48,038 nt of DNA from Cyclobacteriaceae bacterium (GTDB taxonomy: Bacteria > Bacteroidota > Bacteroidia > Cytophagales > Cyclobacteriaceae): NCBI GenBank assembly GCA_023151255.1, contig JAKLJG010000015.1, forward strand, positions 1 to 48,038, written 5' to 3'. A program made the translations under genes and the position numbers. Positions 7,745 to 13,423 of this stretch are shown one piece after another. Numbering within the stretch: position 1 is the first letter of the stretch; every line of letters starts with the position of its first letter. The notes under the pieces are model-generated. The model was not told the DNA's origin. It was given only the letters and a program-made list of their open reading frames with translations, and ran no database searches.

Positions 7745-8980
7745 ATGAAAAAAATTTTATTCGCTTCGCTTTTAATCGGGGTATGTATTCGGTTTGCCTC
7801 CGCACAAAATCTCGGTTTCACTATCGCTGACGGTAGGCAGCGCGTGGATATACCCATCGAAGTAGTAAACAACCTGATTGTTGTTCCGGTCATTCTCAAC
7901 GAGACCCTGCCACTGAAGTTTATTGTTGACACCGGTGTTCGCACGGCCATCCTCACCCAAAAGGCTTTTTCGGATATTCTTCAACTGGAATACAGCCGTA
8001 AGTATTCCATATCAGGTGCCGGAGGCGAAAAGGTTATTGACGCCTACGTAACCAATAATGTTTCCCTGCGGCTGCCCGGGGTAGAAGGGCGGGGTCATGC
8101 CCTGCTGGTGCTTGAAGAAGATTACCTGGAACTGCGCAATTTTCTTGGTACCGATGTTCATGGAATTCTCGGGTATGAATTGTTCAGCCGGTTCATTGTT
8201 AAGTTTGACTATCAAAAGAAAATCATGACATTAATGCTGCCGCAGAAATTCAAACCGGGTCGCAAGTACACACCTATACCCATCCGCATTCAGGACACCA
8301 AACCCTACCTGCTGGCGCCCATCAGTATTGATGAAGGCCACACATTAAATGCAAAATTGCTGGTGGATACAGGGGCCAGCCATGGCTTAATGCTTGAACC
8401 CGAATCGGACGACCGCATCCGGTTGCCAGAAAAAACCGTCAGCGGCACCATTGGGCGGGGGCTTGGGGGGCCCATCTCCGGAAAAATCGGCCGCATTGAA
8501 TCGATTGAATTAGGAGGCCGCATATTGCGCAAAGTGCTGGTTAACTTCCCCGACAGCAACAGTTATTTTGCCGATTCGCTGTACATCGAACGCGTTGACC
8601 GCAACGGTACACTGGGCGGTGAAATACTCAGCCGCTTCCAGGTAATTATCAACTTTCCGCAGGAGAAAATTTACCTGAAGCCCAACAGCGAGTTTAACAA
8701 ACAATTTTACTTTAACCTGAGCGGCATCAGTATTCGGGCAAAGGGATCATCACTCAGCGCTTTTGAAGTATCCGAAGTACGGCCGCAATCGGTTGGTGAA
8801 CGTGCCGGTGTATTGCCGGGCGATAATATTATTGCCATTAATAACATACCAGCCCGCGAAATGAAGTTGAACCAGATTAATGCCTTATTCAATTCCAAAC
8901 CCGGTCGAAAATTAAGACTGGAAATTGACCGGAGCGGTACAAAGAAAATTATTAACCTGGTGCTCGAAAACCAGATTTAA
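7745..8980 (+). CDS. Exported two-lobed retropepsin-like aspartic protease with PDZ domain
   Basis: A 411-aa protein with a signal peptide (cleavage near ASA-Q, residue 20). It has two aspartyl motifs in one chain: VDTG with Asp62 and VDTG with Asp208, each followed by hydrophobic-hydrophobic-Gly/Leu stretches (ILGYELF, LGGEILSRF) as in retropepsin halves. A C-terminal PDZ domain (about residues 315-405) has the GERAGVLPGDNIIAIN core. The expected place is the periplasm or outer membrane. Retropepsins normally dimerise; here the two halves are fused in a pepsin-like arrangement. Its stop overlaps the convergent receiver-like gene by 4 nt. Confidence 0.88.
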   Translation: MKKILFASLLIGVCIRFASAQNLGFTIADGRQRVDIPIEVVNNLIVVPVILNETLPLKFIVDTGVRTAILTQKAFSDILQLEYSRKYSISGAGGEKVIDAYVTNNVSLRLPGVEGRGHALLVLEEDYLELRNFLGTDVHGILGYELFSRFIVKFDYQKKIMTLMLPQKFKPGRKYTPIPIRIQDTKPYLLAPISIDEGHTLNAKLLVDTGASHGLMLEPESDDRIRLPEKTVSGTIGRGLGGPISGKIGRIESIELGGRILRKVLVNFPDSNSYFADSLYIERVDRNGTLGGEILSRFQVIINFPQEKIYLKPNSEFNKQFYFNLSGISIRAKGSSLSAFEVSEVRPQSVGERAGVLPGDNIIAINNIPAREMKLNQINALFNSKPGRKLRLEIDRSGTKKIINLVLENQI

Positions 8981-9453
8981 CGAAACAGTTTAAGTAATTC
9001 GCGCCTGCGCTTGTTGTAGGCCTCCGCAAGGTATTGCCGGGTTCTTCTGAGTTTTAATGAATTCCTGAGTGAGTTGTACAGAGCCTCTCCGGTAAGATTT
9101 TTCTTTAAAACATAATCAGCTATATCGTTAGTTGGCAGGGCCTCTTCAAAATTGGAGTTTTTCAAAACCGTAATCGGAACGTCTTTAGTTTTTCTGTTTG
9201 TTGAAAGCGTGGCCACGGTTTCGCTTAACTCCTGCCTGCCGATGTTATCATCTATCAGAATAAAATTCGGGCGAAACCGCAACAGCCGTTGCCAGATGCT
9301 TTTCAGGTCAAAGGCAATTTCGGCCATTATGCGGTGGCCCGGCACACGTTGCAACAACTCGCGCATTTTACTCAATTCAATGGGATTGTTGCCCACCAGC
9401 AGTACATTTACTGCCTGCTCCGATTTAGACGCAGTTTTAATTTTTGTTTCCAT
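8977..9453 (-). CDS. Stand-alone receiver-like (CheY-fold) protein, degenerate
   Basis: A 158-aa protein. Residues ~15-125 follow the receiver pattern: strand VNVLLV, strand NFILIDD with the phospho-acceptor position (Asp68 or Asp69), strand VPITVLK with the switch Thr, and DYVLKKNL with the conserved Lys. The acidic pair normally following the first strand is replaced by Gly-Asn-Asn (21-23), so Mg2+ binding and phosphorylation are doubtful. A basic C-terminal tail (~30 residues, Arg/Lys-rich) follows and no DNA-binding domain is present. No histidine kinase is adjacent. It is an inferred phosphorylation-independent or weakly phosphorylated partner protein. Confidence 0.72.
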   Translation of the reverse strand: METKIKTASKSEQAVNVLLVGNNPIELSKMRELLQRVPGHRIMAEIAFDLKSIWQRLLRFRPNFILIDDNIGRQELSETVATLSTNRKTKDVPITVLKNSNFEEALPTNDIADYVLKKNLTGEALYNSLRNSLKLRRTRQYLAEAYNKRRRELLKLFR

Positions 9454-9567: not shown

Positions 9568-10680
9568 TTGAAACAGGTTGCAATTATTGGCGGGGGTTTA
9601 GGAGGGTTAATTGCTGCAATCAGGCTGGCGAAAGCAGGTATGCCGGTAGTGTTGTTTGAAAAAAAAACGTACCCGTTTCACCGCGTTTGCGGTGAGTATG
9701 TGTCGAACGAAACCCTGCCTTTTCTTAAACACAACGGACTCTTCCCTGAAAAATTTGAACCGCCCTCTGTTTCCAGGTTCCAGTTGAGTGCAATAAATGG
9801 AAAAAGCGCTTTTCTTCCGCTCGATTTGGGTGGTTTTGGTATCAGCCGGTACGCTTTTGATCATTTTCTTTCACAGCAAGCACGCGCAGCAGGGGTACAA
9901 GTTGCAGAAAATTGTGAAGTGAGCCGGGTTCAATTCAATCAAGACCGGTTTGTTATTCAGGCAAATGACCATACACTTGAAGCAGACGTTGTAGTTGGCG
10001 CTTTCGGTAAACGCTCGCGGCTGGATGTTCAGCTTAACCGTGGCTTCATAATGAAACGTTCACCTTACGTGGGTATTAAGTATCACATCAAAACCAATCA
10101 CCCCGATGATCTGATTGCGTTGCATAACTTTAACGGAGGGTACCTGGGCATCAGCAATGTTGAGGCTGGCAAAACCAATTTGTGTTATTTGGTACACCGC
10201 AACCTGCTTAAACACTACCATACCATTCCGGCTCTTGAAGAAAATGTGTTGTTCAAAAATCCACATATCAAAAACATTTATGCCAACTCAACTTTTCTCT
10301 TTGAAAAGCCGGAAGTGATCAACGAGTTTTCGTTTGCTCCGAAAGAGCCTGTTTACAACCACCTGCTAATGGTAGGCGATTCAGCCGGCATGATTACGCC
10401 CCTGTGCGGTAACGGCATGGCCATGGCCATCCATGCAGCCAAACTGGCTACCGATTTGGTGCTGCAACAAGTTACCGAAAAACAACCCAGGAAGTGGCTG
10501 GAAAAAAGTTATCAGTATGCCTGGAAAAAAAAATTTGCCGGTAGGCTGCGGTATGGCCGGTGGGTGCAGCATTACCTTTTCGGCAGTCATCTGTCATCCG
10601 ATTTGGCTATCCGCCTGGCACTTTACCTTCGCCCTATAGCACGGTTAATGATTAAACAATCGCACGGAGAGCCTTTTTAG
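9568..10680 (+). CDS. FAD-dependent oxidoreductase (geranylgeranyl-reductase / hydroxylase-like)
   Basis: A 370-aa flavoprotein with an N-terminal dinucleotide-binding motif GGGLGG (residues 8-13) and Glu31 at the end of the second strand. The family motif after it reads HRVCGEYVSNETLPFL. The second FAD motif, MVGDSAGMITPLCGNGMAMA (about residues 268-287), is the usual GD-x-A-G-x-x-x-P-x-x-G-x-G of this group. Start: an in-frame TAA lies at 9559-9561, so the TTG at 9568 is the only reasonable start. In context (PKS and methyltransferase nearby) it probably hydroxylates or reduces an aromatic or polyprenyl product, like the flavoprotein SrsC. The exact reaction is not decidable from sequence. 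Confidence 0.85.
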   Translation: MKQVAIIGGGLGGLIAAIRLAKAGMPVVLFEKKTYPFHRVCGEYVSNETLPFLKHNGLFPEKFEPPSVSRFQLSAINGKSAFLPLDLGGFGISRYAFDHFLSQQARAAGVQVAENCEVSRVQFNQDRFVIQANDHTLEADVVVGAFGKRSRLDVQLNRGFIMKRSPYVGIKYHIKTNHPDDLIALHNFNGGYLGISNVEAGKTNLCYLVHRNLLKHYHTIPALEENVLFKNPHIKNIYANSTFLFEKPEVINEFSFAPKEPVYNHLLMVGDSAGMITPLCGNGMAMAIHAAKLATDLVLQQVTEKQPRKWLEKSYQYAWKKKFAGRLRYGRWVQHYLFGSHLSSDLAIRLALYLRPIARLMIKQSHGEPF

Positions 10681-11561
10681 AATGCCGCCAATACATGGGT
10701 TGAATCCAAAAACAGGTAAATAAAAAATCCGTTCAGGCAGGTGGCTGATATAAAATTCATCAGCATGGTGTTGGCGTAATCGGCTTTTGATGCGTCTGTC
10801 CGTACCCGAAAAAACCAGTAACCAAAAAACAGCAGAACTGGCACCATGGACACCAAAAACAACAGGGCATACTTCAGTTGAAAGAAGCTGATGAATAAAA
10901 AAACAAAACCGCCAACGGCCAGCGTAAAGATGATTGCTGTAAAATAAAAGGTACTTTTTATTCCAAGGCGCAGGCTCATCGAAATGTCACCCCGCTTTAA
11001 GTCTTCCTCGTGCTGGTACACCTGGGTTAGAGGATAACTACCCCAAAGCATCACACTGGTTAGCATGGCTGGCGTTAAAACACCCGGACGAAAGGCCTGC
11101 TCAAATGTAAAATCATTGAGCCCGACATAGCACGCCAGAAATGTGAAAAAACCCTGGAAGAAACCGGTAATCAGCCAGCCGCCAACCGGGTATTTCTTTA
11201 ATCGGGTTATGGGATGGCTGTATGCTTTGGAGGCTAACCCGTAAATGAAAACCATACCGGCAAAAGCAGTGTTAATTTTTACAAACGCCAGCAGGATGGC
11301 CGCAACATCAAACAGCAGTGAAATAAAGTACAGGCTTTTGTTTACCGGTGGCGGCTTTTTAAGCCCGCCAATACTTTTTTCATCGCGGTCGAAGTAACTA
11401 TTGTACCCATTGCTTGCCGGATAAAGAAAAAAATGAAGAATGATAAACACCCACAGCAGCCTGTCCTGATTAAGGTTCGGTGCAAAACTGAGGCTGAATA
11501 AATAGATCGGTAGCAGAAAGTACGAAAACGGAATGCGCAAGTGTAAGAGAGACGACAACAT
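10677..11561 (-). CDS. UbiA-family prenyltransferase-like membrane protein
   Basis: A 294-aa protein with about eight or nine hydrophobic helices. The first Asp-rich motif of UbiA enzymes is seen as NSYFDRDEKSIGG (Asn54, Asp58, Asp60). The second appears as YQHEEDLKRGDISMSLRLG (around residues 185-205). These bind the Mg2+-diphosphate of the prenyl donor. Length is typical. The frame extends to TTG 11582, but ATG 11561 (MLSSLLHLRIPF) matches the family beginning better. The gene is divergent from the PKS and converges with the flavoprotein (4-nt overlap), so it is likely to prenylate the PKS product or modify a related quinone. Confidence 0.85.
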   Translation of the reverse strand: MLSSLLHLRIPFSYFLLPIYLFSLSFAPNLNQDRLLWVFIILHFFLYPASNGYNSYFDRDEKSIGGLKKPPPVNKSLYFISLLFDVAAILLAFVKINTAFAGMVFIYGLASKAYSHPITRLKKYPVGGWLITGFFQGFFTFLACYVGLNDFTFEQAFRPGVLTPAMLTSVMLWGSYPLTQVYQHEEDLKRGDISMSLRLGIKSTFYFTAIIFTLAVGGFVFLFISFFQLKYALLFLVSMVPVLLFFGYWFFRVRTDASKADYANTMLMNFISATCLNGFFIYLFLDSTHVLAAF

Positions 11562-11612
11562 GGTAAGCGGGTTACGAACCAAAATAGATTATTTTACGGT
11601 ATTATTGAAAGC

Positions 11613-12707
11613 ATGAGTTTTATAACAGCCATCGGCACGGCCGTACCCGAAAACCGGTTTAGCCAAGAGGCGATTGCCAGCTTTATGGCCAGGGCGATGA
11701 GCTTGAATCGTGAAGACAGTCGAAAACTACGAACCATTTTCAAATCAAGTGGTATTGACTGGCGTCATTCGGTGCTTAGCGATTACGGCAAGACAGAAAA
11801 TTTTTCGTTCTTCACCGACTCATTCGATCCGTTTCCCTCCACTGAAGCCCGCCTGGCAATATATCGTAAAAGTGCACTGGCGCTCAGTGTAAAGGCAGTT
11901 GCCGATTGCATAAAGGATGCCTCGTTCGACTATCGATCCGTTACGCATCTGATTGTGGTGAGTTGTACCGGCATGTATGCCCCCGGGTTGGACATCGACC
12001 TGGTAAAGCAATTTGGTTTACGTGAGAATATTAACCGGCTTTGCATCAACTTCATGGGTTGTTATGCTGCCTTTAATGCGCTTAAAGCGGCCCATGCCTT
12101 TTGTGCAAGCGAGCCGGATGCACGTGTGCTGATTGTATGCACCGAAACCTGCAGCCTGCACTTTCAAAAGGAACCAACCGAAGATAACCTGTTGGCCAAT
12201 GCCCTGTTTGCCGATGGTGCCGCAGCACTATTGGTTGAGAGCAGACCGCAACCAGGTTTAAATTTTCAGCCCGAAGCATTTCATAATGCCCTTGCGTACA
12301 ATGGAACAGAACACATGGCCTGGAGCATTGGTAACATGGGTTTTGAGATGAAACTCTCCAGCTACGTACCCGATATTATTAAAAATGGAATCAGGGGTTT
12401 GACAGAACAATTGCTTTCGCATTTACAAAAGCACCTTACGGAGATAACCTACTTTGCTATTCACCCGGGCGGAAAACGTATCCTTGAAGTAATTGAAACC
12501 CAACTGGACATACCGGCTAACCAAAACCACCATGCCTATCAGGTTCTTAAGCACTACGGAAACATGTCATCTCCAACTGTATTATTTGTTTTAAAAAGGA
12601 TTTATGATCAATTGACGCAGGCCGATGACGGCAACCGTGTTTTGAGTTTTGCCTTCGGTCCGGGCCTGACCATGGAAAGCATGTTATTGAAGGTTGTGAA
12701 AGCATGA
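11613..12707 (+). CDS. Type III polyketide synthase (chalcone/stilbene synthase family)
   Basis: A 364-aa thiolase-fold enzyme. The catalytic triad is readable: Cys150 in INFMGCYAAFNAL, His284 in YFAIHPGGKRILE and Asn317 in KHYGNMSSPTVLFVL. A GFGPG-like loop (SFAFGPGLTMESML) closes the protein. The family condenses an acyl-CoA starter with malonyl-CoA to alkylresorcinols, alkylpyrones or phloroglucinols. It has no adjacent acyl carrier, which fits type III enzymes. The stop overlaps the ATG of the methyltransferase by 4 nt (ATGA), so the two are coupled. Specificity cannot be assigned. Confidence 0.93.
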   Translation: MSFITAIGTAVPENRFSQEAIASFMARAMSLNREDSRKLRTIFKSSGIDWRHSVLSDYGKTENFSFFTDSFDPFPSTEARLAIYRKSALALSVKAVADCIKDASFDYRSVTHLIVVSCTGMYAPGLDIDLVKQFGLRENINRLCINFMGCYAAFNALKAAHAFCASEPDARVLIVCTETCSLHFQKEPTEDNLLANALFADGAAALLVESRPQPGLNFQPEAFHNALAYNGTEHMAWSIGNMGFEMKLSSYVPDIIKNGIRGLTEQLLSHLQKHLTEITYFAIHPGGKRILEVIETQLDIPANQNHHAYQVLKHYGNMSSPTVLFVLKRIYDQLTQADDGNRVLSFAFGPGLTMESMLLKVVKA

Positions 12708-13423
12708 GCCGGTTTTCAGTACGATCGAATACACCGGAAATCATGGATGATCTCGCCTGCTCAGGCGAAGTAGTTCATCAAACCCTTCGTGAACTGGAGT
12801 TTATCAATAAATGGCTGGGGGGCAACGCTATCACATTTAGTGGTGTTGACACGCTGCTAAAAGGCCGGGAGCAGGCCGCTGTCCACATTGCCGACCTTGG
12901 CTGCGGCAGCGGGGAAATGCTGAAGTTGATTTCGCAACGGCTGCAATCAAAAGGAATCAAACCAATTTTAACCGGTATTGATGCGAACCCGAACATTATT
13001 GAATATGCAAAAAAAAATTGCGCGGGCTTTTCAGGCATACACCTGGCAACCGAAAATATTCTGGCAGCGGAGTTTCAGCAAAGGAAGTTTGATATTATCG
13101 TGGCCACCCTGTTCTTTCATCATTTTACTTCGGCCCAACTCATCGACATTCTGAAACAACTAAAAAAGCAGGCTGATGTTGGTATCGTCATCAATGATCT
13201 GCACCGGCATCCGCTGGCGTTTTACTCCATTAAACTGTTGACGAAACTATTCTCAAAATCCGGTATGGTTAAGTACGATGCACCCCTTTCGGTATTGCGC
13301 GGCTTTACCCGTAACGAACTGGTGGGTATTTTAAAAGGAGCCGGTATAACCAGGTTTACCCTTCGCTGGAAGTGGGCCTTCCGCTGGCAGGTTATTATCC
13401 CTGCCACCGGCAGTCCGGGATAA
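12704..13423 (+). CDS. Class I SAM-dependent methyltransferase, PKS-linked
   Basis: A 239-aa Rossmann methyltransferase. SAM motif I is IADLGCGSGE (residues ~62-71). Motif II ends in LTGIDANPNIIEYAKK, and a motif-IV-like strand reads FDIIVATLFFHHFT. The C-terminal half is hydrophobic and basic. The 4-nt ATGA overlap with the type III PKS implies joint translation and function, probably O- or C-methylation of the phenolic product, as SrsB methylates alkylresorcinol. SrsB-type and Bacillus BpsB enzymes belong to a different (membrane, isoprenylcysteine-like) family, so this is an analogous rather than homologous partner. Confidence 0.88.
   Translation: MSRFSVRSNTPEIMDDLACSGEVVHQTLRELEFINKWLGGNAITFSGVDTLLKGREQAAVHIADLGCGSGEMLKLISQRLQSKGIKPILTGIDANPNIIEYAKKNCAGFSGIHLATENILAAEFQQRKFDIIVATLFFHHFTSAQLIDILKQLKKQADVGIVINDLHRHPLAFYSIKLLTKLFSKSGMVKYDAPLSVLRGFTRNELVGILKGAGITRFTLRWKWAFRWQVIIPATGSPG

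Follow-up and report, generated by a model that had tools for sequence, protein, structure and literature searches.

What do four tightly packed genes of a Cyclobacteriaceae bacterium make together, and do they belong to one pathway at all? The locus lies in a stretch of 48,038 nucleotides (NCBI GenBank assembly GCA_023151255.1, contig JAKLJG010000015.1, positions 1 to 48,038), called the window throughout, and encodes a flavin adenine dinucleotide (FAD)-dependent enzyme, a UbiA-superfamily membrane protein (UbiA), a type III polyketide synthase (PKS), and a class I S-adenosylmethionine (SAM) methyltransferase (MT). An initial annotation of the DNA had placed these four enzymes within 3.9 kb and proposed that they make a prenylated phenolic lipid. 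The open reading frames are where it put them, all four genes are full length, and every protein matches Pfam above cut-off. Because the four genes show near all-or-none co-occurrence in related genomes, even where they are unlinked, we conclude that they serve one pathway. That this pathway builds a phenolic membrane lipid by polyketide synthesis, methylation, ring oxidation, and prenylation is, in our judgment, reasonably likely.

Co-occurrence of the four genes

The window's own genome and 98 relatives were searched with each protein or its profile, and strong matches were tabulated. Across these 99 genomes, the PKS was found in 79, UbiA in 76, the FAD enzyme in 78, and the MT in 74. All four genes were present in 70 genomes, none in 19, and a mixed set in 10, which bears out the conservation in Cytophagales that the initial annotation had put forward as a check. 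UbiA accompanies the PKS in 76 of 79 PKS-positive genomes and occurs in 0 of 20 PKS-negative ones, the two genes agreeing in 96/99; members of seven genera from the window's family are among the PKS-negative genomes. The FAD gene is found in 78 of the 79 PKS genomes (the exception is G074), and every FAD-positive genome has the PKS. Six PKS genomes are missing the MT (G028, G041, G046, G064, G070, and G074), and three have the PKS without UbiA (G048, G020, and G088). All three of the latter carry the FAD enzyme and the MT, and the PKSs of G020 (32% identity, one stop inside the match) and G088 (31%) are diverged.

Physical linkage varies. In the 76 genomes with both UbiA and the PKS, the two genes lie at most 6 kb apart in 56, on the same contig at distances of 53 kb to 3.5 Mb in 7, and on different contigs in 13; since co-occurrence extends to the unlinked pairs, the coupling is independent of linkage. 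The PKS and MT lie within 6 kb of each other in 63 of the 73 genomes holding both, and all four genes fall inside 8 kb in 42 of the 70 complete genomes.

Two flanking genes served as controls. The receiver-domain gene occurs in 29/79 PKS genomes and 4/20 others (54 mismatches with the PKS; Fisher 0.19) and the protease/PDZ gene in 68/79 and 8/20 (19 mismatches; Fisher 6.6e-5), compared with 3 mismatches for UbiA; the sampled genomes share kinship, and these Fisher values are not true probabilities. As candidate pathway parts, the receiver-domain gene (8977-9453) was rejected because its presence does not follow the PKS, and the protease/PDZ gene (7745-8980) was set aside because it follows the PKS loosely. 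These patterns support treating the four genes as functionally one unit in Cytophagales.

Complete in 70 of the 99 genomes and wholly absent from 19, the set resembles a core lipid trait more than a sporadic antibiotic cluster. That its genes tend to come and go together in Cytophagales suggests that a membrane lipid is widespread there and, apparently, has so far escaped isolation. One genome (G078) carries an MT match of 231 bits (C14:75913-76599) and no strong PKS, UbiA, or FAD match; this lone gene is possibly a remnant.

The association extends beyond these relatives. In a phylum sample of 296 Bacteroidota genomes, UbiA matches exceed 250 bits in 21 genomes, 7 of which are also among the 99, and all 21 have a PKS match of at least 439 bits. 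A scan of genome contigs with the UbiA profile and peptide patterns found at least 586 relatives among at least 594 pattern matches. Among the loci of the best 80 of these relatives, some of which end at contig edges, are those of Cyclobacteriaceae, Flammeovirgaceae, Cytophagales, Fulvivirga, Algoriphagus, Belliella, Marivirga, Roseivirga, and Chryseolinea. The window's order and strands (FAD+ UbiA- PKS+ MT+) recur in 56 of the 80 (55 plus L082), and the remainder comprise UbiA- PKS+ MT+ (15), UbiA+ FAD- (5), UbiA alone (3), and FAD UbiA PKS (1). Other families have a one-strand order, UbiA-PKS-MT-FAD (L161, L164, L166, and L167; L071 and L072). The PKS match falls into two consecutive pieces in L082 (2017-3095; query 1-305/311-361) and in G010 (C368:15731-16809; 1-307/308-361), possibly through a frame shift or an assembly error.

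A proposed pathway

In the pathway that we propose, the PKS would condense a long-chain acyl starter with malonyl coenzyme A into an alkylresorcinol-type phenol, whose chain length and ring type are presumptive. By analogy with related trios of PKS, MT, and FAD enzyme, the SAM methyltransferase would methylate a ring carbon or a hydroxyl. The FAD enzyme would oxidize the ring to a (methoxy)hydroquinone or quinone, and the UbiA-clade protein would use a prenyl diphosphate to prenylate the phenol within the membrane. These last three steps could occur in any order.

The product would most likely be a methylated, ring-oxidized, prenylated alkylresorcinol, comparable with the product of the agq genes of Actinoplanes; agq-like prenylated methoxyhydroquinone lipids offer the best analogy for this presumed chemistry. 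A bolder version envisages a two-tailed lipid quinone or hydroquinone throughout Cytophagales, with an alkyl tail from the PKS and a prenyl tail added by a UbiA of a new active-site type, in which Gln replaces a metal-binding Asp; such a lipid would supplement menaquinone in redox or stress functions. We regard this version as doubtful. Four genes and cultured strains would make a probable new phenol or quinone of Bacteroidota membranes directly accessible to genetics; Chryseolinea serpens (L108), Belliella pelovolcani (L136), and Fulvivirga kasyanovii (L091) are cultured members in which this UbiA was found.

The UbiA-clade protein

The UbiA protein matches PF01040 at 64.8 bits (cut-off, 34.2). 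Its AlphaFold2 (AF2) model has a mean predicted local distance difference test (pLDDT) score of 93.8 and finds its best Protein Data Bank (PDB) match in AfUbiA (4tq3, with geranyl diphosphate [GPP] and Mg; E 1.7e-5). By Pfam and predicted fold, it is a member of the UbiA superfamily. No NCBIfam prenyltransferase model scored above cut-off, and the only match, BchG at 28 bits, was under its cut-off. Three other UbiA genes in the same genome exceed curated cut-offs, namely, those for heme o synthase, a 1,4-dihydroxy-2-naphthoate (DHNA) polyprenyltransferase (MenA), and a PRK12872 prenyltransferase. We rejected the window protein as a menaquinone or heme enzyme, the assignment that the initial annotation had named as fatal to its proposal, because it scores below the equivalog cut-offs and because MenA and CtaB are separate genes elsewhere in this genome.

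What sets the protein apart is its aspartate motifs. An alignment of 113 sequences was assembled, 73 by a scan with two peptide patterns that include parts of both motifs and 40 through PKS neighborhood or profile, and its positions were assigned to AfUbiA residues from the spacing of the motifs and from alignment to MenA and chlorophyll synthase. In the first motif, usually NDxxDxxxD, N61 and D65 are invariant (113/113) and S62 nearly so (112/113), and an aspartate at position 69 occurs in only 2/113. The second motif has Q190 and D194 in 113/113 and so departs from the usual DxxxD. Among the 40 sequences found outside the motif scan, the glutamine is present in 40 and the serine in 39. Counterparts of AfUbiA Asn68, Asp72, Tyr139, Ser140, and Asp202 are fixed in all 113 sequences, and that of D198 is glutamine in all 113; Arg16 and Lys129 are fixed as well and tentatively match AfUbiA Arg22 and Lys146. 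According to the portion of the AfUbiA study available (PMC4106721), N68, D72, D198, and D202 bind Mg, and Y139 and S140 lie at the cleaved bond. The clade therefore resembles the superfamily, as represented by AfUbiA, MenA, and chlorophyll synthase, in its fold, the first-motif Asn and Asp, the catalytic Tyr-Ser pair, and the last Asp of the second motif, but it differs in having Ser for the Asp after Asn, Gln for the first DxxxD Asp, and no third Asp in the first motif.

One explanation of these substitutions is that the protein is no longer a usual prenyltransferase and, with Gln for Asp, accepts a different phosphorylated donor or serves the PKS product as a scaffold or carrier in the membrane. 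The uniform Gln at the first DxxxD position, the Ser behind the first-motif Asn, and the missing NCBIfam assignment would fit such a change, and the superfamily does include a phosphoribosyltransferase (PMC10994848, in the part available), structurally a weaker match (8j8j). The residues that are fixed, Arg16 and Lys129 among them, are nevertheless those expected of a working metal and diphosphate site, and chlorophyll synthase too aligns a non-Asp residue at the Gln position. We judge a changed donor or a carrier role to be unlikely and a working prenyltransferase with an altered second metal site to be likely. Of the initial annotation's prenyltransferase making a meroterpenoid-like lipid, the UbiA fold and the co-occurrence stand; given the altered aspartate motif, prenyl transfer itself is only probable. 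Because an Asp required in Escherichia coli MenA is Gln here in 113/113, the clade is also a natural experiment on which metal-site residues a UbiA enzyme really requires.

Outside the window's class, the two genomes opened from family f42 combine a PKS-MT-FAD trio (L156 and L158) with an unlinked, diverged UbiA (L155 and L157). These two UbiA proteins (~30% identity) have the same Gln-type motif, and UbiA and the PKS co-occur less strictly in this family. A plasmid search with UbiA gave no match.

The FAD-dependent enzyme and a trio across phyla

The best NCBIfam match of the FAD enzyme is the geranylgeranyl reductase (GGR) superfamily model TIGR02032, at 100.7 bits against a cut-off of 158.8, followed by QhpG at 87.3 bits. 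Its AF2 model (pLDDT 91.2) is closest in fold to a group of proteins that includes flavin halogenases, 3-hydroxybenzoate 6-hydroxylase, the GGR-like 3oz2, and UbiH.

Plasmids show with which genes such enzymes travel. A plasmid search with the PKS returned 159 records, of which eight were opened by PKS match. Five of the eight (PKS, 36-48% identity), from Psychrobacter, Deinococcus radiodurans, Paludisphaera, Methylobacterium, and Roseomonas, carry PKS, MT, and FAD genes without UbiA. Cytophagales profiles detect all three trio proteins in L170, L175, L176, L177, L178, and L181, the weakest match being the Deinococcus FAD enzyme at 39 bits. On the three more distant plasmids (PKS, 24-27%; Azospirillum and two Streptomyces), the stretch lacks an annotated FAD partner. 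The PKS of one adjoins a class I methyltransferase gene, and Azospirillum has a methyltransferase of isoprenylcysteine type. Judged by these profile matches, PKS-MT-FAD is a cross-phylum trio, and the UbiA clade is a Bacteroidota addition to it.

Could the FAD enzyme instead be a GGR-type reductase that saturates a prenyl chain added by UbiA, giving an alkylphenol with a reduced prenyl group? The GGR superfamily is its top family match, a GGR-like structure is among its fold matches, and the actinobacterial agq product bears a dihydrogeranyl group (by the title of Awakawa 2011, as cited in PMC4044012). The TIGR02032 score, however, falls short of the cut-off. The enzyme also has GYxGIS where GGRs usually have a YxWxFP segment. 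Homologues accompany PKS and MT in lineages without this UbiA, and another adjoins an aromatic isonitrile synthase gene on a Hymenobacter plasmid. Chain reduction is therefore an unlikely role, in our view. The FAD enzyme is probably a ring hydroxylase or oxidase of the polyketide, and it most likely acts on the polyketide because it accompanies PKS and MT where UbiA is absent, both in G020, G048, and G088 and in the trios.

Two homologues lie on other plasmids. In Hymenobacter sp. DG01 (L180:4869-6053; 398 bits), the gene lies beside those for an L-Tyr/L-Trp isonitrile synthase and a TauD/TfdA dioxygenase, suggesting that the flavoenzyme has been reused in an aromatic isonitrile pathway, which suits an aromatic substrate. 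On a 602-kb Bernardetia plasmid (L179:4875-6092; 492 bits), no PKS or MT adjoins the gene, and an IS5 transposase is near.

The type III PKS

The PKS matches the N and C domains of chalcone/stilbene synthases at 110.2 and 87.5 bits (cut-off, 27). Cys150, His284, and Asn317, the triad that the initial annotation had named, are at those residues and are invariant in 20 aligned homologue rows. The enzyme is a type III PKS. Its closest solved relatives are Steely1 and the long-chain alkylpyrone synthase Pks18, whose Thr144, Ala148, and Cys205 align with Thr119, Ala123, and Cys180 of the window PKS. We take Pks18 Thr144 and Ala148 to have a tunnel role. Cys205 is among the tunnel residues listed in the accessible portion of PMC6274091; Asn208 and Ala209, from the same list, are replaced by His183 and Phe184 in the window PKS, which breaks the small-residue pattern. 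Overall, the comparison suggests a long acyl starter. The pyrone synthase Pks11 also has a Trp where the window PKS has Trp237, the position of a residue discussed for ArsB and ArsC (PMC6274091, same portion); the ArsC chain is absent from the 60 alignment rows listed (of 102, 98, and 101) in our residue comparison.

With Pks18 so close a relative, the PKS might make an alkylpyrone rather than an alkylresorcinol, and the partner enzymes would then decorate the pyrone with a methyl ether and an oxidized side chain. Acceptors of UbiA-type aromatic prenylation are usually phenols, which counts against a pyrone. The PKSs of characterized PKS-MT-FAD trios are, moreover, reported to make alkylresorcinols, those of planctomycetes in a heterologous host (PMC10896814), and so is that of a cyanobacterial trio (PMC8086630 and PMC10896814, available passages). 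We consider an alkylpyrone improbable and retain the alkylresorcinol as the presumed first product.

Points against the proposed pathway

That the four genes are neighbors through shared chromosomal order only, and belong to separate pathways in which UbiA would help make quinone or heme, is very improbable: at many loci of the family the flanking genes, too, are conserved in order, and one of them is weakly associated with the PKS, but the idea is largely contradicted by co-occurrence that persists with the genes far apart, by flanks that track the PKS far worse than UbiA does (19 and 54 mismatches versus 3), and by the separate MenA and CtaB genes.

Several observations weigh against the phenolic lipid pathway itself. 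Resorcinol and pyrone formation cannot be told apart from the PKS sequence, in which Trp237 is shared with Pks11; the first Asp of DxxxD is absent from UbiA in 113/113; and the best family model of the FAD enzyme, though under its cut-off, is a reductase family. For the planctomycete trio, the available text of PMC10896814 states that the function of its FAD enzyme is unresolved. The protease/PDZ flank is also associated with the PKS, far less tightly than UbiA. In the phylum sample, the converse of the UbiA-PKS association fails: many genomes have a type III PKS without this UbiA, which therefore marks a sub-lineage of the pathway, and G188, G280, and G373 have PKS matches above 439 bits, yet their UbiA match is diverged or partial. 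Finally, the end product is not identical in every member, as three genomes (G020, G048, and G088) lack UbiA and six lack the MT.

Locus layout

Coordinates are collected in Table 1. The initial annotation had noted 4-nucleotide overlaps between the FAD and UbiA genes and between the PKS and MT genes. Both exist, but the former joins convergent genes tail to tail and, since these lie on opposite strands, is no sign of cotranscription. The latter, an ATGA on one strand, is the sole operon-type overlap in the set, which is not a single operon. The likelier start of UbiA is an in-frame ATG at residue 8 (11561), which would widen the UbiA-PKS spacing to 51 bp. The GC content of the four genes (0.446-0.478) is near that of the window (0.465), so recent transfer is not suggested. 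The receiver-domain-like gene (minus strand) has no Pfam match and a weak NarL match in family models, and at many loci of the window's family it stands next to the FAD gene.

Table 1. Features of the four-gene locus (positions are those of the window)
Feature	Positions	Strand	Size	Assignment or form	Basis
FAD-dependent enzyme	9568..10680	+	370 aa	GG-reductase/QhpG/halogenase-like flavoprotein	ORF and Pfam FAD_binding_3
UbiA-superfamily membrane protein	10677..11582	-	301 aa	Probable prenyltransferase, distinct clade	PF01040
UbiA second motif YPLTQVYQHEEDLKRGD	10986..11036	-	residues 183-199	Usual DxxxD is Q190xxxD194 here	
UbiA first motif NSYFDRDEKSIGG	11364..11402	-	residues 61-73	Usual form NDxxDxxxD	
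UbiA/PKS gap (divergent)	11583..11612		30 bp	Presumed shared promoter region	Layout
Type III PKS	11613..12707	+	364 aa		Pfam Chal_sti_synt_N and _C
PKS triad codons	Cys150 12060-12062; His284 12462-12464; Asn317 12561-12563	+			Residue positions checked
Class I SAM methyltransferase	12704..13423	+	239 aa		Pfam Methyltransf_31/25

Comparison with known systems

A product of the four-gene set was not found in the open-licence literature (subscription papers and preprints lie outside this coverage), in agreement with the initial annotation, which knew of no characterized Bacteroidota product. Type III PKS clusters are listed without a product, in the passages available, for Marivirga (PMC11225308), Reichenbachiella (PMC10752948), and Fulvivirga kasyanovii (PMC12565237).

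The initial annotation had likened the set to srsABC of Streptomyces griseus. That cluster presumably has no prenyltransferase, and we take SrsB to be an isoprenylcysteine-methyltransferase-like membrane enzyme, whereas the MT encoded in the window is, by Pfam, a class I SAM enzyme. The likeness holds in that srs PKS products are oxidized to alkylquinones (PMC10896814, in part), but the hierridin and planctomycete trios together with agq are closer than srsABC alone. In the loseolamycin (los) cluster of Micromonospora endolithica, a UbiA prenyltransferase, a methyltransferase, and a type III PKS are annotated close together, but an acyl-CoA dehydrogenase replaces the FAD enzyme in the stretch; the los products are alkylresorcinols (PMC7587189, available portion).

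The hierridin genes hidABC and a planctomycete methyltransferase-oxidoreductase-type III PKS operon share with the window a type III PKS, a SAM methyltransferase, and an FAD oxidoreductase. The Paludisphaera plasmid trio (L177) is homologous by profile to the window PKS, MT, and FAD enzyme (334, 112, and 105 bits), and hid is likened here by description. The hid trio yields methylated hierridins (PMC8086630 and PMC10896814), and one planctomycete methyltransferase is a probable C-methyltransferase (PMC10896814). Unlike the window, these trios differ in gene order and are reported without a UbiA in the accessible parts of both papers; one Raphidiopsis cluster has a prenyltransferase.

The closest functional precedent would be agq of Actinoplanes missouriensis, likened by its description in the available text of PMC10896814, where a type III PKS alkylresorcinol is prenylated and hydroxylated. 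Its products are alkyl-O-dihydrogeranyl-methoxyhydroquinones, according to a title cited in PMC4044012 and PMC9967187, and agq is cited among membrane prenyltransferase systems (PMC4044012, in part). It belongs to a different phylum, and the Gln variant motif is a feature of the window UbiA; in combining polyketide formation, prenylation, and hydroxylation, agq nevertheless comes nearest to the chemistry that we propose for the Cytophagales locus.

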